From contig NZ_CP046566.1 in NCBI RefSeq assembly GCF_009740285.1, forward strand, positions 1,856,501-1,920,500: a stretch of 64,000 nt of DNA, read 5' to 3'. This DNA comes from Phnomibacter ginsenosidimutans (GTDB lineage Bacteria > Bacteroidota > Bacteroidia > Chitinophagales > Chitinophagaceae). The first letter of the stretch is position 1. Every line of letters starts with the position of its first letter. The notes below the pieces were generated by a model that was given only the letters and a program-made list of their open reading frames with translations, made no database searches and was not told the origin of the DNA. A program made the translations under genes and the position numbers. Below, one piece after another: positions 16,282 to 31,267 of this stretch.

Positions 16282-16312
16282 TTGGCTGGTTTTTGGCACC
16301 GCTTTATATTTG
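16282..16312 (+). promoter_or_regulatory. promoter of the pheA leader / aromatic operon
   Basis: TTG at 16282-16284, a 20-base spacer and TATATTTG at 16305-16312, a full match to the Bacteroidota TTG-N20-TAnnTTTG pattern. The same spacing is seen at the tRNA-Gln promoter. The G of the -7 element is only five bases from the leader ATG, so transcription should begin at or next to that ATG. Confidence 0.75.
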
Positions 16313-16317
16313 CAGCA

Positions 16318-16389
16318 ATGAATAAGTGGTTTACATACGCCGGTTTTTATTTTTTCTACTTTACCGAGAGTAAAGCGGACCGGAACTAG
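16318..16389 (+). CDS. aromatic-rich leader peptide of the aromatic amino acid operon
   Basis: A 23-codon ORF, ATG at 16318 to TAG at 16387. Nine residues are aromatic: Trp4, Phe5, Tyr7 and a continuous block at residues 10-15 reading F-Y-F-F-Y-F (codons 16345-16362). It has no Shine-Dalgarno sequence and begins about five bases after the promoter's -7 element. It precedes pheA, an aromatic aminotransferase and tyrA. Its last codons overlap antiterminator segment 2. This is the classic design of a ribosome-mediated attenuator leader that senses charged tRNA-Phe and tRNA-Tyr (and perhaps Trp). The reading is direct from the sequence; translation is not shown. Confidence 0.85.
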   Translation: MNKWFTYAGFYFFYFTESKADRN

Positions 16390-16465
16390 TATGTACAAGT
16401 AATCAAGGAAAAAAACTTAGCACAATACAGGCCCGGTCCGAAAAGGTCCGGGCTTTTTATTTTTT
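16340..16465 (+). promoter_or_regulatory. transcription attenuator with four pairing segments
   Basis: Segment 1 CCGGT (16340-16344) can pair with ACCGG inside segment 2. Segment 2 CGGACCGG (16376-16383) pairs perfectly over 8 bp with segment 3 CCGGTCCG (16433-16440): the antiterminator. Segment 3 (16431-16439) alternatively pairs with segment 4 (16445-16453), giving GCCCGG/CCGGGC, one T-T mismatch and two more G-C pairs with a GAAAA loop, followed by TTTTTATTTTTT: the terminator. A ribosome stalled in the aromatic block leaves segment 2 free and permits readthrough; one at the TAG (16387) covers segment 2 and lets the terminator form. A small hairpin CTTTAC/GTAAAG lies at 16359-16375. The mechanism is inferred by analogy with the enteric trp and phe operons. 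Confidence 0.82.
16431..16465 (+). terminator. attenuator terminator upstream of pheA
   Basis: The stem described for segments 3 and 4, followed by a U tract that ends directly at the pheA ATG (16466). No separate ribosome-binding site fits between them. Confidence 0.85.
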
Positions 16466-17323
16466 ATGAAAAAGGCAACCAACGACGCAGCACCACAGCA
16501 CATCGCCATTCAAGGTTATGAAGGCAGTTTTCACCAGGAAGCAGCCCGCCGTTTTTTTGGTAAGCAAACCGTAGTCATTCCCTGCGATACTTTTCGACAG
16601 GTGATACAGCACACCATCAACCGCAGTGAAGCGAATGGCGGTATGATGGCCATCGAAAATTCAATTGCCGGCAGCATTTTACCCAACTATACGCTGCTGC
16701 AAAAGCATCCGGTAAAAATTGTGGGTGAAGTATATCTCCACATCAAACAACATTTACTGGCCAATAAAGGCGTAAAACTGGAAGACATTAAAGAAGTGCA
16801 GTCGCACCCCATGGCCATTTTGCAATGCATGGAGTATCTGGAAACACAACCGCAGTTGAAACTGATGGAAACAGAAGATACCGCACTGAGTGCCAAACAC
16901 GTGGCTCAACGCAAAAGCAAATACCAGGCTGCCATCGCCGGTAAGCTGGCTGCCGAATTATACAATCTCGACATTCTTGTACCCAACATACACACCCAAA
17001 AAAATAATTACACCCGCTTTTTGGTATTGAAGCATGAAAAAGATGCGCAGCCGGTAGAAGGTGCAGATAAAGCATCACTGAAATTTCATACCGATCATTC
17101 GAGAGGCAGTCTGGCCAAAGCATTGGCCATCATTGCCGATGCAGGCATCAATCTGAGCAAGTTGCAAAGCATGCCCATACCCGGTACAGAATTCATGTAC
17201 TCTTTTTACGCCGACATGGAGTTTGGCGATTTGAATCAGCTGAACAAAATGCTGAAGAAACTGGAAAAAGCCACTGAAAGTGTGACGCTGTTTGGAATTT
17301 ACAAAAACGGAAAACTGAGTTGA
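16466..17323 (+). CDS. pheA: prephenate dehydratase
   Basis: A 285-residue monofunctional prephenate dehydratase, converting prephenate to phenylpyruvate in Phe synthesis. The catalytic domain spans about 12-190 with GYEGSFHQEAA, AIENSIAGS (63-70) and NYTRFLVL with the essential Thr-Arg-Phe at 183-185. The C-terminal ACT domain (about 204-282) normally binds Phe through an ESRP motif; here the corresponding stretch reads LQSMPIPG (233-240), so the usual feedback site is altered. The gene starts at the end of the attenuator U tract. The aminotransferase follows one base after its stop. Confidence 0.93.
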   Translation: MKKATNDAAPQHIAIQGYEGSFHQEAARRFFGKQTVVIPCDTFRQVIQHTINRSEANGGMMAIENSIAGSILPNYTLLQKHPVKIVGEVYLHIKQHLLANKGVKLEDIKEVQSHPMAILQCMEYLETQPQLKLMETEDTALSAKHVAQRKSKYQAAIAGKLAAELYNLDILVPNIHTQKNNYTRFLVLKHEKDAQPVEGADKASLKFHTDHSRGSLAKALAIIADAGINLSKLQSMPIPGTEFMYSFYADMEFGDLNQLNKMLKKLEKATESVTLFGIYKNGKLS

Positions 17324-17324
17324 A

Positions 17325-18479
17325 ATGCAATTGGCCAAGCGATTGAATGGAATAGGAGAATATTATTTTTCGCAGAAGCTGCGGGAGATAGATACTATGA
17401 ACAAAGCGGGAGATAACGTCATCAATTTGGGCATTGGTAGTCCGGATTTGCCACCACATCCAGAAGTGATTAAAGTATTGCAGGAAGAAAGTGCCAAGCC
17501 GAATGTGCATGCTTATCAGAGTTACAAAGGCTCGCCCATTTTGCGTCAGGCCATTGCCGATTGGTATCAAAACTGGTACAATGTTCAGCTCGATGCCGAT
17601 ACAGAAATATTGCCGCTCATAGGTTCAAAAGAAGGCATCATGCACATCTGCATGACCTACCTTAACGAAGGTGATCAGGCATTGGTGCCTAATCCCGGAT
17701 ATCCAACGTATCGGAGTGCAGTAAAACTTGCCGGTGGTGAGTGTGTGGATTATGCCTTGACCGAAGCGAACAATTGGCAACCCGATTTTGAAGCCCTCGA
17801 ACAACTCGACCTTAGCAAGGTGAAACTGATGTGGGTGAATTATCCGCAAATGCCTACCGGTCAGTTGCCCGATGCTGCTGTGTTTGCAAAACTTATTGCT
17901 TTTGGCAAAAAACATCAGATACTCATTTGCCACGACAATCCTTACAGTTTTATACTCAATGAAGAGCCGGTAAGCTTGTTGGCACAACCAGATGCCAAAG
18001 ACATTGTACTCGAACTGAATTCCCTCAGCAAAAGCCACAACATGGCGGGCTGGCGGGTTGGCATGTTGTGCGGTGCTGCCGATCGTATCAACGAAGTGCT
18101 GCGCTTTAAAAGCAACATGGACAGTGGTATGTACTTGCCGCTTCAACTGGCGGCTGCCAAGGCTTTGCAAGTAGATAACAGCTGGTATGATACCGTAAAT
18201 GAGGAATACAAACGACGCAGAGAGCTGGCCTATCAATTGCTGGATTTATGCGGTTGTACCTACAGCAAACAACAGGTAGGTATGTTTTTGTGGGCCAAAG
18301 TGCCGGCGGAGTTTGAAAATGGTTTTGCCTTTAGCGATCATTTCCTCTACAAAGCAAAAGTGTTCCTTACACCGGGTGGTATATTTGGCAGCGCCGGCGA
18401 TGGCTACTGCAGAATCAGCTTGTGCAGCAGCGAAGCCCGCATCAAAGAAGCGATTTCGAGAATTGAAACGATTATATAA
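17325..18479 (+). CDS. class I/II PLP-dependent aminotransferase (probable aromatic/prephenate-pathway)
   Basis: A 384-residue fold-type I aminotransferase. The PLP-binding lysine is Lys236 in LNSLSKSHNMAGWRVG. Asn172 (VNYPQMPTG), Asp204 (CHDNPY) and Tyr207 are the other cofactor contacts. The family includes LL-diaminopimelate and aspartate/aromatic aminotransferases. Its place between pheA and tyrA, one base after pheA, suggests that it makes Phe and Tyr from their keto acids, or arogenate from prephenate; the substrate itself is inference. Cytosolic. Confidence 0.88.
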   Translation: MQLAKRLNGIGEYYFSQKLREIDTMNKAGDNVINLGIGSPDLPPHPEVIKVLQEESAKPNVHAYQSYKGSPILRQAIADWYQNWYNVQLDADTEILPLIGSKEGIMHICMTYLNEGDQALVPNPGYPTYRSAVKLAGGECVDYALTEANNWQPDFEALEQLDLSKVKLMWVNYPQMPTGQLPDAAVFAKLIAFGKKHQILICHDNPYSFILNEEPVSLLAQPDAKDIVLELNSLSKSHNMAGWRVGMLCGAADRINEVLRFKSNMDSGMYLPLQLAAAKALQVDNSWYDTVNEEYKRRRELAYQLLDLCGCTYSKQQVGMFLWAKVPAEFENGFAFSDHFLYKAKVFLTPGGIFGSAGDGYCRISLCSSEARIKEAISRIETII

Positions 18480-18540: not shown

Positions 18541-19380
18541 ATGAAAGTAGCAATAGTGGGCGTGGGATTGATTGGCGGCTCTGCAGCATTGGTATTGCGG
18601 CAGAAAGGCCTTGCCTCGCATATTATTGGTGTAGAAGCCAGCCCGGCACATGCTGCCAAAGCCATCGAACTGGGTATTGTAGATGAAGTGTTGCCTTTAC
18701 CGGAAGCCATTGCTCAAAGCGAAGTAGTAATACTGGCGGTGCCGGTGGACAGTGCTATTGATGTGTTGTTGCCCGTGCTCGACCTCGTTACCACACAAGT
18801 GGTAATGGACATGGGCTCAACCAAAGCTCAAATCATCGATGCTGTAGCAGCGCATCCAAACCGTGGCCGCTTTGTAGCAGCACACCCTATGTGGGGTACA
18901 GAGTTTAGTGGTCCGGAAGCGGCAACCGTATATGCGTATGCCGGAAAGGCAGCTATTATTTGTAACGCATCAGACAGTGATGCAGATGCATTGGCAACGG
19001 CAGAACAATTATTGAAGAACATAGGCATGTACCTGGTGTACATGGATGCACACGACCATGACGTACACACTGCCTATATCAGCCACATATCACACATCAC
19101 TTCTTTTGCCCTCGCCAATACGGTGCTGGAAAAAGAAAAAGAAGAACAAGCCATTTTTGAACTGGCCAGCGCCGGTTTTGAAAGCACAGTGCGATTGGCC
19201 AAAAGTAACCCCGACATGTGGGTACCTATCTTTCGGCAAAACCGCGACAATGTGCTGGATGTGCTGAATGAACACATTGCACAGCTGCGCAAATTCAAAG
19301 CGTGTTTGGAAAAAGAAAATTGGGATTATCTGCGAGAGTTGATTGGCAATGCCAACAACATCAAGCGTATTTTAAAATAG
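18541..19380 (+). CDS. tyrA: prephenate dehydrogenase
   Basis: A 279-residue NAD(P)-dependent dehydrogenase that converts prephenate (or arogenate) towards Tyr. The start at 18541 is preferred over the upstream ATG at 18502 because the protein then begins directly with the Rossmann strand MKVAIVGVGLIGGSAAL. Other features are AVPVDSAIDVL, DMGSTKAQI, AAHPMWGTEFSGPEAA (the HPM-G motif) and SHISHITSFALA with the catalytic-type histidines. There is no fused chorismate mutase or ACT domain; the mutase is fused to the DAHP synthase downstream instead. It lies 61 bases after the aminotransferase gene. Confidence 0.92.
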   Translation: MKVAIVGVGLIGGSAALVLRQKGLASHIIGVEASPAHAAKAIELGIVDEVLPLPEAIAQSEVVILAVPVDSAIDVLLPVLDLVTTQVVMDMGSTKAQIIDAVAAHPNRGRFVAAHPMWGTEFSGPEAATVYAYAGKAAIICNASDSDADALATAEQLLKNIGMYLVYMDAHDHDVHTAYISHISHITSFALANTVLEKEKEEQAIFELASAGFESTVRLAKSNPDMWVPIFRQNRDNVLDVLNEHIAQLRKFKACLEKENWDYLRELIGNANNIKRILK

Positions 19381-19428
19381 AAAAAATGTGCTGCAGGCCT
19401 GGGCGGTGTGTGGCACGAATCAAAAAAC

Positions 19429-21078
19429 ATGAGTGACTTTAGCACATTGGGCCTGAATGACCAACTCCTTGCCGGTATTGTAAAGCTTGGATTTGAAACG
19501 CCAACTGAAATTCAAACAAAAGCAATTCCGCTGTTGCTGCAGGGAACCCGCGACTTTGTAGGTCTTGCACAGACCGGTACTGGTAAAACAGCAGCATTTG
19601 GTTTGCCTTTGCTGCACCTGATTGACAAAACACAGAAACATGCACAGGCATTGGTGGTTTGCCCCACCCGTGAGTTGTGTATGCAAATTGTAAAAGACCT
19701 TGAGGCCTTTGGCAAAGCCGGTGGTGGTGCCAAGGTTTGTGCGGTGTATGGTGGTACTTCCATCACACAGCAAATTCGTGATCTGCGCCACGGTGTGCAG
19801 ATTGTTGTTGCTACCCCTGGTCGCCTCATCGACCTTATCGAACGCAAAGCTATTGACCTTACCAAGATTGGCTATGTAGTGTTGGATGAAGCGGATGAAA
19901 TGCTGAACATGGGTTTCAAAGAAGATATCGATTTCATTTTGGAATACACACCCAACCGCAATAGTATGTGGTTGTTCAGCGCTACCATGCCACCAGAAAT
20001 TCGCAATGTGGCCAAGCGTTTTATGAACCAGCCGGTGGAAGTGAGTGTAGGCAAAATGAATACTACCAACGTCAACATCGACCACCAGTATTTTGTGACG
20101 GCACAACCGCACCGTTACGAAGCATTGAAGCGTTTGATTGATTTCAATCCTGACATCTACGGCATCATTTTTACCCGCACCAAAATGGATGCACAGGAAA
20201 TTTCTGACCGCCTAACCAGAGAAGGTTACAACGTAGATTCTCTGCATGGCGATTTGAGCCAGCAGCAACGCGACCGGGTAATGAACGGCTTTCGTAGCAA
20301 GGCTTTACAGCTGGTAATTGCCACCGACGTAGCTGCCCGTGGTATCGACGTGTCCGGCATTACGCATGTCATCAATTTCGAACTGCCCGATGATGTGGAA
20401 GTATATACACACCGCAGTGGTCGTACCGGCCGTGCTGGTAAAACTGGTATATGCCTGAGCATCGTTACTGCACGTGACGTTCGTCGCATCCGCGATATTG
20501 AACACATCGTGAAAACGAAGATGAACCGTTTGGAAATTCCTTCGGGTAAAGACGTTTGCCGCAAGCAGTTCTTCCATTTCATGGACAAACTCCTTGCTAC
20601 AGACATTAGCCATGGCGATTACGAAACCTATCTGCCCATGTTGACTGAAAAGTTTGCCAATGTGTCGAAGGAAGAAGTGTTGCAGCGAGTAGCAGCGTTG
20701 GAATTTGACCGCTTCCTGAAGTACTATGAAAATGCAGTAGACCTCAACATCAAGAAAACACCTGAACGCCCAATGGCGGGGGCAGGTGACCGCAAACCTT
20801 TTGAACGCCGCGATACCAAGGGCCGCAGTTTTGAAGGCGGTGGCGGTAACTATCAAAAGGTATTTGTGAACCTCGGTACCAAAGACGGTTTTTACAAAGC
20901 CAGCTTCCTGCAGTACATTCTTGACCTGAGTGATTTGCGCAAAGATGTACTGGGCAGGGTAGACCTGAAAACCATGAACAGCTTTGTAGAAGTAGACAAG
21001 CAACACGTGAAAAAGATGATCAAGGCCATTGATGGTAAAACTTACAAGGGCCGCAAAATCAGGATGAACGAAGCATAA
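19429..21078 (+). CDS. DEAD-box RNA helicase with DbpA-type RNA-binding domain
   Basis: A 549-residue ATP-dependent RNA helicase. Motif I is AQTGTGKT (47-54), Ia PTRELCMQ, II VLDEADEML (DEAD at 153-156), III FSATMP and VI HRSGRTGRAGK. The C-terminal about 80 residues (KVFVNLGTKDGFYKASFLQYI onward) match the DbpA-type RRM that binds 23S rRNA hairpin 92, so a role in ribosome assembly or RNA remodelling is likely. The start at 19429 (MSDFSTLGL) is the family-like one. Unusually, it sits inside the aromatic operon between tyrA and the DAHP synthase gene, with 48- and 43-base gaps and no obvious internal promoter. Confidence 0.92.
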   Translation: MSDFSTLGLNDQLLAGIVKLGFETPTEIQTKAIPLLLQGTRDFVGLAQTGTGKTAAFGLPLLHLIDKTQKHAQALVVCPTRELCMQIVKDLEAFGKAGGGAKVCAVYGGTSITQQIRDLRHGVQIVVATPGRLIDLIERKAIDLTKIGYVVLDEADEMLNMGFKEDIDFILEYTPNRNSMWLFSATMPPEIRNVAKRFMNQPVEVSVGKMNTTNVNIDHQYFVTAQPHRYEALKRLIDFNPDIYGIIFTRTKMDAQEISDRLTREGYNVDSLHGDLSQQQRDRVMNGFRSKALQLVIATDVAARGIDVSGITHVINFELPDDVEVYTHRSGRTGRAGKTGICLSIVTARDVRRIRDIEHIVKTKMNRLEIPSGKDVCRKQFFHFMDKLLATDISHGDYETYLPMLTEKFANVSKEEVLQRVAALEFDRFLKYYENAVDLNIKKTPERPMAGAGDRKPFERRDTKGRSFEGGGGNYQKVFVNLGTKDGFYKASFLQYILDLSDLRKDVLGRVDLKTMNSFVEVDKQHVKKMIKAIDGKTYKGRKIRMNEA

Positions 21079-21121: not shown

Positions 21122-22210
21122 ATGAGTACTCAAGCAGTCGAAAAGATTTCACTGGCCCAGGAAGCCTGGGAGAAAAGACCATTGATTATTAGTGGACCTT
21201 GTAGCGCTGAAACAGAAGAACAAGTCATTGAAACGGCACAACGCCTTGCGAAAACCGGAAAGGTAAATGCCATTCGTGCAGGCATTTGGAAACCCCGTAC
21301 ACGCCCCGGAAGTTTTGAAGGAGTGGGTACCAAAGGTTTGCCCTGGATGCAGCAGGCCCGCAAAATCACTGGTTTGCCCGTAGCTGTGGAAGTGGCTACA
21401 GCCAAGCAGGTAGAAGATGCCTTGCATTTTGATGTAGACATTCTCTGGATTGGTGCCCGCACCACGGTAAACCCTTTTAGTGTGCAGGAAATTGCTGATG
21501 CGCTTAAAGGTGTGAAAGTGCCGGTACTCATTAAGAATCCTATTAACCCCGATCTCGAATTGTGGATTGGTGCAGCAGAACGTGTGGCCAAAGCTGGTAT
21601 CGATCAGATTGGGTTGATTCACCGTGGCTTTAGCAACTACGGCAATACCGAATACCGCAATGCGCCCATGTGGCACTTAGCCATCGAAATGAAGCGTCGT
21701 AATCCGGGTATGATGATGATCAACGATCCATCACATATCTGTGGCCGTCGGGATATTTTGCAGGATGTAGCGCAAAAAGCCATTGACCTCGACTTTGATG
21801 GGTTGATTGTTGAAACCCACATCGATCCGGACAATGCATGGAGCGATGCCAAGCAACAAATTACACCGGAAGTATTTGGTGAAATGCTCGACCGGATTGT
21901 TTGGCGGAAAGAAGACATAGACTCTGCTGATTTTCATAGTGTGCTTGAAAAAATGCGTCAGCAAATCAACCACCTGGATGATGAGCTGATGACCTTGCTC
22001 GGACAACGCATGAAGATTGCTGACAAAATTGGTCAATACAAAAAGGACAACGCAGTGACCATTTTGCAAACATCACGTTGGAATGAAATTCTGGAACGTG
22101 CTTATCAAAAAGGTGATCCGTTGGGATTGAGCAAAGAGTTCATTACCCGCTACATGGATGCTGTACACATGGAGAGCATCAATCGTCAGAACAAAATCAT
22201 GAACAGCTAA
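21122..22210 (+). CDS. bifunctional DAHP synthase / chorismate mutase (type II)
   Basis: A 362-residue fusion. Residues about 15-265 are a class I 3-deoxy-7-phosphoheptulonate synthase (SGPCSAETEEQV, KPRTRPGSFEGVG, WIGARTTVNPFSVQE, DPSHICGRRD, ETHIDPDNAWSDA), the first step of the shikimate pathway. Residues about 277-358 are an AroQ-type chorismate mutase (MRQQINHLDDELMTLLGQRM ... KIGQYKKD). The fused mutase probably also acts as the feedback sensor for chorismate/prephenate, as described for related Bacillus and Bacteroidota enzymes; that is family knowledge. It follows the helicase gene and precedes aroB by 20 bases. Confidence 0.93.
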   Translation: MSTQAVEKISLAQEAWEKRPLIISGPCSAETEEQVIETAQRLAKTGKVNAIRAGIWKPRTRPGSFEGVGTKGLPWMQQARKITGLPVAVEVATAKQVEDALHFDVDILWIGARTTVNPFSVQEIADALKGVKVPVLIKNPINPDLELWIGAAERVAKAGIDQIGLIHRGFSNYGNTEYRNAPMWHLAIEMKRRNPGMMMINDPSHICGRRDILQDVAQKAIDLDFDGLIVETHIDPDNAWSDAKQQITPEVFGEMLDRIVWRKEDIDSADFHSVLEKMRQQINHLDDELMTLLGQRMKIADKIGQYKKDNAVTILQTSRWNEILERAYQKGDPLGLSKEFITRYMDAVHMESINRQNKIMNS

Positions 22211-22230: not shown

Positions 22231-23250
22231 ATGATACAACAGGAAATGGTCATTGCGGGTAGTACCGTGCAGTATGTGTTTGATGCCGGGCTAAGTAAGC
22301 TGAGTTCGTTGTGCGATAAAAAAACCACAGTCATCATTACTGATGAAAACGTGTTTGCCGCACATGGCAGCAAAATGAAAGGCTGGCGAACCATTGTACT
22401 CAAGCCAGGCGAAGCGTACAAACAACAGTCGGCCATAGATAGCATTCTTGGCCAGCTGATGGAGATGGAAGCTGACCGCAGCACCACACTCGTAGGCATT
22501 GGCGGCGGCGTAGTTACCGATATGACGGGCTATGCCGGCGCTGTGTACATGCGGGGTGTTCGCACTGGTTTTGTGCCCACTACTTTGTTGGCCATGGTCG
22601 ATGCATCGATTGGTGGTAAAAACGGGGTAGATGTAGGCGTGTATAAAAATCTGGTGGGTACTATTCGTCAACCGGCTTTCCTGTTGTTCGATACAGCATT
22701 GTTGCAAACATTGCCCGAGTTGGAATGGCAAAATGGTTTTGCTGAAATCATCAAGCATGCTGCTATCAAAGATGCCACCATGTTCAATGATTTACAGCAA
22801 CACGACTTACATTATTTTCAACAACACAAAGCTGCTTTGAAACAGCTGGTGATGAAAAATGCGTTGCTGAAAACTTCAGTGGTGAAAAAGGATCCTTTTG
22901 AAAAAGGCGACCGGAAACTGCTGAACTTTGGGCATACGCTTGGGCATGCCATTGAAAATGACCAGCAACTATCGCATGGGTATGCAGTAGCAGTGGGTAT
23001 GGTGTATGCGGCGCATTTGTCGCAGCAGCTGTTGCAATTTAAGCAACCGCTGGAGCTGATTCAAACCATTGAGCAATACGGATTGCCTACGCATGCCGCT
23101 TTTGATATGCAACGGGCATTGTACAACATGCGCCACGATAAAAAACGGGTGCGGGATGTAATGCACTTTGTATTGCTGCAAAAGCTGGGCAAGGCTGTTG
23201 TGCATCCCATAGCAATTAAGCAGCTTGAAAAACTGTTGTTATCTCACTAA
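22231..23250 (+). CDS. aroB: 3-dehydroquinate synthase
   Basis: A 339-residue NAD- and metal-dependent enzyme converting DAHP to 3-dehydroquinate. Recognisable features are GIGGGVVTDMTGYAGAVYMRG (the glycine-rich NAD site, about 90-110), PTTLLAMVDASIGGKNGVD, NGFAEIIKHAAI and the metal-binding LLNFGHTLGHAIE plus HGYAVAVGM. The length is slightly short but complete. The EPSP synthase start lies 19 bases after its stop. Confidence 0.94.
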   Translation: MIQQEMVIAGSTVQYVFDAGLSKLSSLCDKKTTVIITDENVFAAHGSKMKGWRTIVLKPGEAYKQQSAIDSILGQLMEMEADRSTTLVGIGGGVVTDMTGYAGAVYMRGVRTGFVPTTLLAMVDASIGGKNGVDVGVYKNLVGTIRQPAFLLFDTALLQTLPELEWQNGFAEIIKHAAIKDATMFNDLQQHDLHYFQQHKAALKQLVMKNALLKTSVVKKDPFEKGDRKLLNFGHTLGHAIENDQQLSHGYAVAVGMVYAAHLSQQLLQFKQPLELIQTIEQYGLPTHAAFDMQRALYNMRHDKKRVRDVMHFVLLQKLGKAVVHPIAIKQLEKLLLSH

Positions 23251-23269
23251 ACAAAAGAAGACTACAGGA

Positions 23270-24577
23270 ATGGTAGTAGGCATACAACCAGGAAAAATAT
23301 CGGGCAGTGTAACTGCCAATGCCAGCAAGAGTGCCATGCAACGGGCTTGTGCTGCTGCATTGCTGAAGAAAGGTGAAACCATCATTCATAACCCCGGCAA
23401 TTCCAACGACGACCTGGCAGCATTGGCCATCATCAAAGCCATGGGGGCTGAAGTAATGGCCAATGAAGCAGACAACAGTTTACGCATCATGGGTAAAGGG
23501 TTGCCTTTTTTGCATCAGCCCGAACAGGCCGCTATTCATTGCGGTGAAAGTGGGTTGAGCATTCGCATGTTTACCCCCATTGCAGCACTGGCTATGCAAC
23601 CCGTTACCATTACTGGTGAAGGTAGCCTCACGGTAAGGCCCATGCACTTTTTTCAGGAAGTGTTGCCGCAACTGGGTGTACAGGTACAAACCAATAACGG
23701 GCTTGTGCCCATGCAGGTGAGTGGACCTTTGCAGCCAACAGATATTACCGTTGATGGTTCATTGAGTTCTCAGTTTCTTACAGGTTTGCTCATGGCCTAT
23801 GCTGCGGCCAATGCCAGCGGCGTCAGCATTTATGTAAACGACCTGAAGAGCAAGCCTTATATCGATCTCACCCTGCAGGTGATGAAACAGTTTGGATTGA
23901 AAACGCCCATCAATCATCAGTACGAAAGATTTGAATTTACATCTGAAGAAGCTGCTGCTGGTACAGACCATTTTGCTGTAGAAGGCGACTGGAGCGGTGC
24001 TGCATTTTTGTTAGTAGCTGGCGCTGTTTCCAATGAAGTATTGGTAAAAGGCATTTACAACAGTTCCCGACAGGCCGATAAAAAAATCATTGATGCCATC
24101 CTCGATGCAGGTGCACAGGTGAGGGTAGAAGAAGAACAGGTGTGGGTGAAAAAAGACAAACTCGAAGCTTTTGTATTTGATGCCACGGATTGTCCGGATT
24201 TGTTTCCGCCGCTGGTAGCATTAGCTGCTAATTGCACAGGCGTTACGCACATCAAAGGACTACGCCGCCTGAAGCACAAAGAGAGTGACCGTGGAGTAAC
24301 CCTGCGGGAAGAATTTGCCAAGCTGGGTGTTCGCATAGACCTCAATGATGATGTGATGTTGGTGCATGGCACCGGTGAATTGCGGGTGAATAATTTTACG
24401 CTCAATTCGCATCATGACCACCGCATCGCCATGGCAGCTGCAGTGGCGGCTATCAATGCAGATTTTGGTATTCAAATTCGCAATGCCGATGCTATCAATA
24501 AATCGTATCCTGATTTCTGGAAGCATTTGGCAGCGTTGGGTATTTCTGTACAAAACCAATCCACGTTGGTTAAATAA
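23270..24577 (+). CDS. aroA: 3-phosphoshikimate 1-carboxyvinyltransferase (EPSP synthase)
   Basis: A 435-residue EPSP synthase, joining shikimate-3-phosphate and PEP. The start at 23270 (MVVGIQPGKISG) is chosen over an upstream in-frame ATG that would overlap aroB; the result matches the usual length. Visible motifs are SVTANASKSAMQRA (substrate site), HCGESGLSIRMFTPIA, the strand GDWSGAAFLLVAGAV, LRRLKHKESDR and DHRIAMAAAVAA near the C-terminus. It is ten bases upstream of aroC. Confidence 0.94.
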   Translation: MVVGIQPGKISGSVTANASKSAMQRACAAALLKKGETIIHNPGNSNDDLAALAIIKAMGAEVMANEADNSLRIMGKGLPFLHQPEQAAIHCGESGLSIRMFTPIAALAMQPVTITGEGSLTVRPMHFFQEVLPQLGVQVQTNNGLVPMQVSGPLQPTDITVDGSLSSQFLTGLLMAYAAANASGVSIYVNDLKSKPYIDLTLQVMKQFGLKTPINHQYERFEFTSEEAAAGTDHFAVEGDWSGAAFLLVAGAVSNEVLVKGIYNSSRQADKKIIDAILDAGAQVRVEEEQVWVKKDKLEAFVFDATDCPDLFPPLVALAANCTGVTHIKGLRRLKHKESDRGVTLREEFAKLGVRIDLNDDVMLVHGTGELRVNNFTLNSHHDHRIAMAAAVAAINADFGIQIRNADAINKSYPDFWKHLAALGISVQNQSTLVK

Positions 24578-24586
24578 CTTGCTCGT

Positions 24587-25876
24587 ATGAATCAGTTTGG
24601 AAAATTGTTCCGCGTCAGCATATTTGGTGAATCTCACGGTCCGGCGGTGGGCATTACCATTGATGGATTGCCCACTGGATTGCCCCTGAGTGCAGCCGAT
24701 TTTTTGCCCGACTTGGAGCGTAGAAAAGGCGGCACCCAGAAAGGCACCACGCCCCGTCAGGAAGATGATTATCCCATTTTTCAAACGGGATTATTTCAAG
24801 GCCGTACTACGGGTGCACCACTCACCATCATTTTCGAAAACAAGAATACCCGCAGCGGCGATTACCAAAAGCAACGCTCCGTGCCTCGCCCCGGCCACGC
24901 CGATTGGACAGCACACCACAAGTATGGCGGCTTCGAAGATTTTCGCGGTGGTGGTCATTTCAGCGGCCGCCTTACCGTGTGTGTGGTAGCTGCAGGTGTG
25001 ATTGCTAAAAAGTTGTTGGGCAATGCCACTGTTAGTTCCAATATATTATCAATAGCCGGCGAACCAACCATTGAAGCGGGACTGGAAAAAGCCATAGCGG
25101 CCAAGGACTCTGTGGGTGGTATTGTTGATTGCCGCATCACCGGATTGCCCGCAGGTTTGGGCGAACCCTTTTGGGATTCTGCAGAATCACTGTTGAGCCA
25201 TGCCGTGTTTGCCATTCCGGCCGTTCGTGGTATTGAGTTTGGTACCGGTTTTGCTGCCGCCAACATGTTTGGTGTAGAGCACAACGATGCCATTATCAGC
25301 AACGATGGCCGCACCGAAACCAACCATGCTGGTGGCATTGTCGGAGGCATAACCAATGGCAACGAAGTGTATTTTAAAATAGCTATCAAGCCGACATCTT
25401 CCACACCAAAAGATCAATTCACATTGAACTGGGAAACCGGTGAAATGGAAAGTTTTTCTGTAAAAGGAAGACACGATTTGTGCATTGCGTTGCGGGTACC
25501 ACCAGTATTGGAAGCCGTGGCTGCCATGGTAATGGCCGACCTCATGATGCAGCAAGGATTGGTGCCCCGTATTTGGCAGGCGCCGGTGTATCATGTTACC
25601 ACCAAAGCTGCCTGGGAGCAAGCTTTACAATTGGGTAAATACGAAGCCCCATCGCTGCATACAGAAGGGTTTATTCATACCAGCGATGCGCATCAGGTTG
25701 CAGGCGTACTCGAACGCTTCTATGCCGGGCAAACGGATTTGCTGCGTTTGTGTATCGACCCTGCCCAACTGGATGTGCCGTTGAAATACGAAGCCGCTTC
25801 AGATGTACCGGAACTGTTTCCACATATTTACGGACCCATTCCGGTGCAGGCTGTAATTGCCGTAGAAGCATTATAA
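24587..25876 (+). CDS. aroC: chorismate synthase fused to a C-terminal DUF952 domain
   Basis: A 429-residue protein, about 70-80 residues longer than normal AroC. Residues 1 to about 328 are chorismate synthase: GESHGPAVG (14-22), RRKGGTQKGTTPRQE, RPGHADWTAHHKYG (101-114), GGGHFSGRLT (121-130), NHAGGIVGGITNG (246-258) and GRHDLCIALRVPPVLEA (294-310). It makes chorismate from EPSP using reduced FMN. Residues 334-429 match DUF952: VYHVTTKAAWEQA, LHTEGFIHTS (357-366), RFYAGQTDLL, and ELFPHIYGPI (409-418). There is no stop or obvious start codon between the parts. The DUF952 function is unknown to me. This is the last gene of the aromatic operon; a strong terminator follows. Confidence 0.9.
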   Translation: MNQFGKLFRVSIFGESHGPAVGITIDGLPTGLPLSAADFLPDLERRKGGTQKGTTPRQEDDYPIFQTGLFQGRTTGAPLTIIFENKNTRSGDYQKQRSVPRPGHADWTAHHKYGGFEDFRGGGHFSGRLTVCVVAAGVIAKKLLGNATVSSNILSIAGEPTIEAGLEKAIAAKDSVGGIVDCRITGLPAGLGEPFWDSAESLLSHAVFAIPAVRGIEFGTGFAAANMFGVEHNDAIISNDGRTETNHAGGIVGGITNGNEVYFKIAIKPTSSTPKDQFTLNWETGEMESFSVKGRHDLCIALRVPPVLEAVAAMVMADLMMQQGLVPRIWQAPVYHVTTKAAWEQALQLGKYEAPSLHTEGFIHTSDAHQVAGVLERFYAGQTDLLRLCIDPAQLDVPLKYEAASDVPELFPHIYGPIPVQAVIAVEAL

Positions 25877-30732: not shown

Positions 30733-31170
30733 GCTATCAGTGAAGGCTATCGCTTGCTGCTGCAAGGCAGGAGAGGAAAGTCCGGACAGCGAAGGGCATC
30801 CCATCCCGCTAACGGCGGGACATCTGCTATGCTGATTCCGATAACAATCGGGAGAAGCTGGCAGGTCGAGACAGTGCCACAGAAAATAACCGCCTTGCTG
30901 TTCATCCCCCTCCGGGGGTATGGGGGCGGGGTAAGGGTGAAAACGGGAGGTAAGAGCTCCCGATGGTTGGTTGCAAGGCCAGCCGTGGGTAAACCTTGGG
31001 TGCTGAAATGCCATGTATAGGAGTGGATGAAGGCGGCCCGCCTGATGCCGCAGCAATGCGGTACGCTCCAGGGTAGGCAGATGCAGGCAGTCAGCAATGG
31101 CTGTCGTAGATAAATGATAGCAACACCGCTTCGGCGGCGTTACAGAATCCGGCTTATGCAGCTGGTAGCA
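30733..31170 (+). ncRNA. rnpB: RNase P RNA (class A)
   Basis: The catalytic RNA that trims tRNA 5' ends. Conserved elements in order are GAGAGGAAAGTCCGGAC (30771-30787), ACAGTGCCACAGAAA (about 30873), GGTAAGGGTGAAA, the GTAAACC segment, GATAAATGATAG (31109-31120) and ACAGAATCCGGCTTA (31142-31156), which binds CCA. The ends are set by P1, GCTATCAGT (30733-30741) with GCTGGTAGC (31161-31169), all nine positions pairing with two G-T pairs. P2 is GCTATC (30746-30751) with GATAGC (31116-31121). The length of about 438 nt suits class A. Downstream, GAAGCCAC/GTGGCTTC (31174-31209) could form a further hairpin. Confidence 0.95.
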
Positions 31171-31267
31171 CATGAAGCCACTTCAGGAGACATTCTGGGG
31201 TGGCTTCGCCATTTTGAGTATGGAAATGAATGGTTCGTGTGCCTCGAACTATGGCTGAGGTTATTGA

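Follow-up and report, generated by a model that had tools for sequence, protein, structure and literature searches.

The attenuators of the enteric pheA (with its leader pheL), trp, and his operons follow a common plan, in which a short ORF rich in codons for the end product of the pathway precedes an antiterminator and a terminator that exclude each other before the first gene. Leaders responding to several amino acids are also classical, as in ilvGMEDA (Ile/Val/Leu) and thr (Thr/Ile). Some attenuator leaders are themselves leaderless, as the polycysteine ORFs of mycobacteria are said to be. According to PMC7298713, trpL of Sinorhizobium meliloti is another leaderless attenuator leader.

In the Bacteroidota, the published indications are few and indirect. 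According to a survey from 2010 (PMC2965389), knowledge of leader peptides was limited to Proteobacteria and Actinobacteria, to which it adds Firmicutes; the word stem Bacteroid is absent from its main text. PMC2864571 presents the Bacteroid-trp RNA (RF01692), a cis-regulatory element of Bacteroidetes whose name ties it to trp genes, and the pheA motif published there is actinobacterial. Closer to our subject, table 7 of PMC1173090 (2005) lists a putative attenuator before the Bacteroides thetaiotaomicron cluster pheA > hisHb > aroA-aroQ > tyrA, an entry drawn from a database of predicted attenuators. It concerns a related cluster in the same phylum, and the entry itself comes without a stated leader peptide, codon block, or mechanism. 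The transcriptome of Flavobacterium psychrophilum (PMC9723704, 2021) revealed that pheA and hisG are each preceded by a structured 5' region, also present in other genera of Flavobacteriaceae, and its authors mention strong clues of leader-peptide attenuation before amino acid operons, while noting that the pheA 5' element has no Rfam family. This element is transcribed and has the same position as the one described below; the passages concerned give neither a leader sequence nor a pairing. The initial annotation of our locus, which knew of no described case in Bacteroidota, was thus too strong in view of these two prior hints. In the open literature (subscription papers and supplements were outside the scope of the search), we found no description of a Phe/Tyr leader from the phylum.

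Here, we analyzed a leader found in a window of 64,000 nucleotides, the whole stretch of DNA under study, which is part of a genome assembled in a single contig of 4.37 Mb (features in Table 1). We interpret it, with a probability of about 0.93, as a ribosome-mediated transcription attenuator that senses charged tRNA-Phe and tRNA-Tyr jointly. Like the enteric pheA, trp, and his attenuators, it has a leader ORF with codons for the products and an exclusive antiterminator and terminator. Unlike them, it would sense Phe and Tyr jointly in one leader, it has segment 2 of the antiterminator inside the ORF, its mRNA is probably near-leaderless, and the cluster it precedes joins Phe, Tyr, and shikimate genes. 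It resembles the ilvGMEDA and thr leaders in devoting one leader to several amino acids and differs from them in the amino acids, the phylum, and the sequence. The predicted start of the mRNA at or near the leader AUG recalls what is reported of S. meliloti trpL and of the mycobacterial polycysteine ORFs, which belong to other phyla and concern other amino acids. A single leader for Phe and Tyr had been called unusual from the start; the Phe and Tyr pair does seem new, whereas leaders for several amino acids are classical as such.

Table 1. Positions of the predicted regulatory elements and of the genes downstream in the window.
Feature	Position	Strand	Description
TTG of Bacteroidota -33 element	16282..16284	+	23 nt before the TA of the -7 box
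-7 box	16305..16312	+	TATATTTG (TAnnTTTG); predicted transcription start around 16317, one base before the leader ATG
Leader peptide ORF	16318..16389	+	MNKWFTYAGFYFFYFTESKADRN followed by the stop, 23 codons; read from sequence
Segment 1	16331..16344	+	UACAUAC + CCGGU; can pair with segment 2 and the post-stop GUAUGUA when the ribosome is absent; by eye, close relatives only
Regulatory codon block	16345..16362	+	F Y F F Y F (codons 10-15), preceded by W4, F5, Y7
Segment 2 of antiterminator	16376..16394	+	Core CGGACCGG 16376-16383; distal part 16386-16394 across the stop codon
Segment 3	16425..16440	+	Linker AAUACAGG region pairs with distal segment 2; CCGGUCCG 16433-16440 is also the terminator 5' arm
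Intrinsic terminator hairpin	16430..16454	+	GGCCCGGTCCGAAAAGGTCCGGGCT; from sequence, folding, and terminator search
T tract	16454..16465	+	TTTTTATTTTTT; ends at the pheA start codon (ATG 16466)
pheA, prephenate dehydratase	16466..17323	+	PF00800
Class I/II aminotransferase	17325..18479	+	PF00155
tyrA, prephenate dehydrogenase	18541..19380	+	NF006307 over cut-off; ORF open from TTG 18502
DEAD-box RNA helicase with DbpA RNA-binding domain	19408..21078	+	PF00270, PF00271, PF03880; inside the gene cluster
DAHP synthase-chorismate mutase fusion	21122..22210	+	PF00793, PF01817
aroB	22231..23250	+	TIGR01357 over cut-off
aroA (start uncertain)	23225..24577	+	TIGR01356 over cut-off
aroC	24587..25876	+	TIGR00033 over cut-off

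The leader peptide, MNKWFTYAGFYFFYFTESKADRN, has nine aromatic residues in all (W4, F5, Y7, and F10-Y11-F12-F13-Y14-F15), exactly as first read from the sequence. Conservation of this codon block in relatives had been set beforehand as a test of the reading. We found pheA in 133 of the 195 genomes of the family, leaving G151 with its partial match out of the count, and read 133 places in 132 genomes (L001-L030 and L076-L178; L031-L075 were kept outside this set because some of them repeat the same genomes). By pheA, the nearest named records are an unclassified Bacteroidetes assembly (96%) and assemblies of Chitinophagaceae (75%). The block survived the test: 126 of the 133 places have, no farther than 450 nt upstream of pheA, an ORF that starts with ATG and contains at least six F, Y, or W in a window of eight residues. 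The same search found 13 hits in 2660 dinucleotide shuffles, one in 1070 other windows of the same loci, and none in the 133 reverse complements. The seven misses are L125, L150, L161 (five aromatics in eight), L165, L168, L177, and L178, and the total rises to 127 if one includes L168, whose leader starts with GTG. In L150 and L165, pheA stands without other genes of the operon in the stretch that was read, and L166, the operon pheA of the same genome as L150, has a leader. No leader was found at L178, which has the operon, nor at L177, which has its first three genes.

The blocks of the 126 leaders comprise 1107 codons, among which 658 are for Phe, 377 for Tyr, and 16 for Trp, with both synonymous codons of Phe and of Tyr in use (TTT, TTC, TAT, TAC). 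The first base is a T in 1058 of them; hence, what is conserved is codons, rather than mere pyrimidines. Phe and Tyr are mixed in 125 of the 126 blocks, the sole exception being L143, and at least two Tyr occur in 122. Switches between Phe and Tyr along the blocks are more frequent than expected by random order (570 versus 461, of 909, uncorrected for relatedness). This interleaving fits a dual sensor, since a shortage of either amino acid would stall the ribosome within the same short stretch. As a bare DNA pattern, a run of six TTY/TAY codons is not rare: the window's own genome has nine, against 12 for a reversed-pattern control. Inspected by eye, two of the nine sit within a short ATG ORF, the Phe/Tyr leader and L230, and only the former is followed by a visible terminator. 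This codon-run search thus found no second aromatic leader in the genome.

The RNA switch of the window was also read correctly in most respects. Segment 3 is the 5' arm of a terminator with stem GCCCGG/CCGGGC, and the T tract reaches the pheA ATG, all at the coordinates first given. The perfect pairing of 16376-16383 with 16433-16440 is exact, CCGGTCCG being the reverse complement of CGGACCGG; its extent of 8 bp did not stand, because the helix is longer, with the end of the ORF pairing with the linker. Folding recovered both states, the antiterminator in 16370-16453 (-22.8 kcal/mol, z -2.6) and the terminator in 16400-16465 (-19.3 kcal/mol, z -3.4), and the stretch 16372-16440 reached a z of -5.2. 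The entire leader as one RNA shows a modest folding excess (z -1.6), which is little informative because the two states are mutually exclusive. The alternative pairing of segments 1 and 2 that had been noticed is present in the window, where CCGGT (16340-16344) is complementary to ACCGG (16379-16383), with a weak folding signal for the region 16328-16400 (z -1.3), and it is visible by eye in the close relatives L002 and L032. We do not propose a general 1:2 hairpin: the short stem that the last aromatic codons form with the next codons in many relatives, as judged by eye, barely overlaps the core of segment 2.

Both the 2:3 and the 3:4 pairings are kept in relatives. A terminator, defined as a hairpin with at least five T in eight, precedes pheA in all 126 leaders, and the hairpin mostly starts 15-30 nt after the leader stop (40 nt in the window). 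An ungapped 2:3 helix scores at least 15 in 120 of the 126 leaders and is weak in the other six. Such scores were found in three of 126 stretches before the block and in 255 of 2520 shuffled tails. When gaps are allowed, the median 2:3 duplex has -20.2 kcal/mol, as compared with -5.0 for the pre-block control and -17.75 for the terminator. The bulged helix extends into the linker and, in 98 of the 126 leaders, equals or exceeds the terminator in stability. On the ungapped test, segment 2 had seemed to lie too far upstream of the stop codon in most relatives, an objection refuted once bulges are considered: its 3' edge lies between -12 and +6 nt from the stop.

The two sides of the 2:3 pairing coevolve. 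We permuted partners among 40 of the 126 leaders, chosen to be less than 75% alike, and the tails scored 833 with their own 5' arms versus 657.6 (sd 18.5) with swapped ones (0/2000 permutations). Covariation was also counted in an alignment of 85 of the 126 leaders, after leaving out those with a 2:3 score below 15, longer than 150 nt, or more than 85% alike. A single column, chosen by the analyst, split it in two classes, A (52 leaders) and B (33 leaders). The terminator shows 55 cells changed on both sides versus a shuffle maximum of 24. For the 2:3 helix, two-sided changes in class A number 25 in the proximal part (shuffle maximum 23) and 16 in the distal part (maximum 12). Covariation in class B is not above shuffles (proximal 21 versus a maximum of 21, distal 7 versus a maximum of 13). 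The proximal pairs of class A are barely above shuffles in pairing (0.76 versus a mean of 0.735 and a maximum of 0.76), and sliding them by +1 gives 29 two-sided cells, versus 25 in register, with fewer pairs formed (0.63). Since the alignment registers are imperfect, it is the permutation test that bears the weight for the coevolution of segments 2 and 3. The tail motif GCTTTKKTTR, present in 54 of the 126 leaders, is read in three frames (42, 11, and 1 leaders). Hence, the tail is conserved as RNA and the block as codons.

The initial annotation had proposed that a ribosome stalled in the aromatic block leaves segment 2 free and that one at the stop codon covers it. A model in which the ribosome masks the RNA agrees with this spacing. 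With the modeled ribosome at the first aromatic codon, 122 of the 126 leaders have the terminator's 5' arm sequestered; with the ribosome at the last one, 114 do. When it is at the stop codon, the number drops to three, and the terminator forms in all 126. The window is among these three exceptions, with a fold of merely -1.6 kcal/mol, versus -23.2 when the ribosome is stalled, and the full terminator hairpin forms there with the ribosome at the stop (-18.4). When the equilibrium fold is computed through the hairpin with the ribosome stalled, the antiterminator is the fold obtained in the window, and the terminator persists in 112 of the 126 leaders (first aromatic) or in 110 (last aromatic). 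This implies that in most relatives the switch would have to be kinetic, i.e., operate during transcription. Judged from the sequences, the leader has the defining features of an attenuator that we examined: the codon cluster, the terminator, an exclusive and coevolving antiterminator, and the spacing.

Of the 126 leaders, 107 have an exact TAnnTTTG box no more than 40 nt upstream of their ATG, versus 19 of 2520 control ATGs, and in relatives the TTG is mostly 21-23 nt before the TA of the box. The end of the box is 4-10 nt before the ATG in 91 leaders. In F. psychrophilum, the -7 box is placed at -12 to -5 (PMC9723704). From this placement, transcription of these 91 leaders is predicted to start 0-6 nt ahead of the ATG, and that of the window's leader at 16317; the leader mRNA thus probably begins there. 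Leaderless transcripts are reported to be rare in F. psychrophilum (5.5%, PMC9723704), and they are likewise rare in B. thetaiotaomicron, where mapped leaders shorter than 10 nt make up around 3.7%. Outside the family, the distance from box to ATG is 8, 7, 10, 27, and 35 nt in the loci of the same order and 17-20 nt in three of the four loci of family f3, and a box was found in two of the 11 loci of f5, which are Flavobacteriaceae-like (names of this kind are inferred from protein similarity). The box being farther or absent in most of these loci, the near-leaderless trait appears strongest in the family of the window.

Outside the family, we picked 40 loci (L179-L218) from 258 genomes with a match, chosen to spread over families and not randomly. 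An aromatic window of at least six was present in 29 of the 40, or 30 if five is accepted. By rank, leaders were found in 5/5 loci of the same order, in 20/23 of the same class (21 with at least five aromatics), and in 4/12 of other members of the phylum. A terminator is present in all 30 loci with a leader, and in 26 of them the 2:3 duplex is stronger than its control; the exceptions, where it is no better, are L180, L181, L188, and L203. No leader was found in the eight genomes of families f4 and f10. Named Flavobacterium loci (five aromatics in eight) and one Sphingobacterium locus also carry the leader. Two loci, L198 and L206, have tandem aromatic leader ORFs upstream of pheA, each followed by a hairpin and a T tract (around -320 and around -175); the upstream leader of the tandem lacks a good 2:3 pairing. 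From their sequences, these are possibly tandem attenuators.

The genes downstream fit a cluster for Phe, Tyr, and shikimate synthesis that is presumably transcribed as one operon. A tyrA match lies downstream of pheA in 115 of the 119 loci for which more than 8 kb were read, a set that includes the named loci L031-L075. In these same 119 loci, some of whose genomes occur twice, a helicase match is located after tyrA in 54 cases and ahead of pheA in 18. The window also holds an RNase P RNA of class A at 30734-31172 (196 bits).

We observed comparable leaders before other amino acid genes. In the window's own genome, MNFTQHNIWWWQLIR and a terminator precede a trpE-like gene (L237, C1:152740), and MKKQLVHIHHHHTYLLG and a strong terminator precede hisG (L246, near C1:3149958). 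In the same genome, at L245, the Ile/Leu/Val-rich leader MLNRLANTTIIISTILVVMVIIVPVLHGGAS and a terminator (631-726) come before an ilv gene that looks by eye like a branched-chain aminotransferase and lies upstream of an acetolactate synthase match. Also in this genome, at L241, the Thr-rich mini-ORF MSTSTTTTTTNTTR (1357-1401) precedes an aspartokinase gene, and a weak hairpin overlaps the end of this ORF. For His and Trp, we searched the family, where hisG matched in 50 of 60 genomes and the trpE-like gene in all 60, none of them over the cut-off of the model, and counted leaders in the 30 best-scoring loci of each search. A His leader was found in 27 of the best 30 loci, all 27 with a terminator (control 0/150). 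A Trp leader, with WWW, was found in 27 of the best 30, and 26 of these have a terminator (control 2/204). Of the 27 His leaders, 19 have the exact box 4-10 nt ahead of the ATG; among the 27 Trp leaders, five have one within 40 nt.

Several other readings of the Phe/Tyr leader were weighed against joint attenuation. One might see a chance ORF in a pyrimidine-rich leader followed by an ordinary terminator, since the whole leader of the window folds only modestly better than shuffles and TTY/TAY runs are no commoner than their reversed control. The conservation of the leader in 126 of 133 places, against 13 of 2660 shuffles and one of 1070 other windows, refutes this reading, to which we give a negligible probability. 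The most serious competitor, still unlikely, is a sensor of Phe only, in which Tyr codons are a tolerated filler, one mutation away from Phe. Phe codons do outnumber those of Tyr (658 and 377), and pheA is the first gene. But nearly all blocks contain both amino acids (125/126), most have at least two Tyr (122/126), their interleaving exceeds chance, and a tyrA match follows pheA in almost all loci (115/119), all of which speaks against this reading.

The two remaining readings keep the elements and change how they act. The hairpin may block the translation of pheA instead of its transcription: in the window, 12 nt separate its end from the pheA ATG, and a distinct ribosome-binding site cannot be seen. 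We consider this improbable, because all 126 hairpins are succeeded by a T tract (which was part of the search rule) and because the spacing between hairpin and pheA match is variable, ranging between 11 and 228 nt with a median of 35. Regulators such as TnaC and SecM have the ribosome stalled by its own nascent peptide, and the leader peptide, which is strongly hydrophobic and conserved in kind, might similarly cause an arrest in the exit tunnel. This has a slightly lower probability still: Phe, Tyr, and Trp vary in order and number, the tail is kept as RNA across reading frames, and the occurrence of similar His and Trp leaders ahead of his and trp genes suggests that codons are sensed.

Under the preferred reading, joint attenuation by Phe and Tyr, transcription would begin around one base before the leader AUG, and a ribosome would translate the 23 codons behind the RNA polymerase. 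With ample Phe and Tyr, it would reach the UAG and cover segment 2, leaving segment 3 free to fold with segment 4 into the terminator before pheA. If either Phe or Tyr were scarce, it would stall in the Phe/Tyr block and leave segment 2 exposed, which would pair with the linker and the 5' arm of the terminator as they emerge. With the terminator blocked, the polymerase would enter pheA-aminotransferase-tyrA-(helicase)-aroG/CM-aroB-aroA-aroC. The leader and its RNA switch thus probably turn on the Phe/Tyr genes when either amino acid is short, and a lack of one of them alone would suffice.

The Phe/Tyr element had no match among the families of Rfam 15. With Rfam applied at two thresholds, no leader family (Trp_leader, Thr_leader, and others) reached its gathering score at the leader of the window, the best scores there being 15.0 bits versus 55 and 13.2 versus 41, and the leader was likewise unmatched by Rfam 15 in 20 relatives. 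There was no T-box match in the leader, and one riboswitch match, far below its cut-off, is on the opposite strand. RF01692 matched neither the element of the window nor the trpE region of its genome, and a search of the trp, thr, ilv, and his regions of this genome gave only one weak antisense-RNA match, far below the cut-off. Hence, annotation relying on Rfam would miss the Phe/Tyr element. Our alignments could seed an Rfam-type family for it, with His and Trp partners.

The mechanism itself appears to be classical. What seems new, on comparative grounds, is the specificity for Phe and Tyr, the anatomy with its longer antiterminator, the reach across families of Bacteroidota, the probable near-leaderless start, and the parallel His and Trp leaders. 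We regard it as an even bet that much of the Bacteroidota, which make no regular use of Shine-Dalgarno sequences, runs its amino acid operons by a full set of attenuators (Phe/Tyr, His, Trp, probably Ile/Leu/Val, and Thr). In the family of the window, the messages would then begin at or near the leader AUG, and this leaderless start would place the ribosome directly behind the polymerase. The Phe/Tyr leader would be an either-or sensor whose interleaved codons give a near-equal stall position for both amino acids. The near-leaderless arrangement lets one ask how the ribosome couples to RNA polymerase without Shine-Dalgarno sites. Attenuation, best studied in enteric bacteria, would extend to a large phylum, in which a leader for two amino acids heads a combined Phe/Tyr/shikimate cluster.
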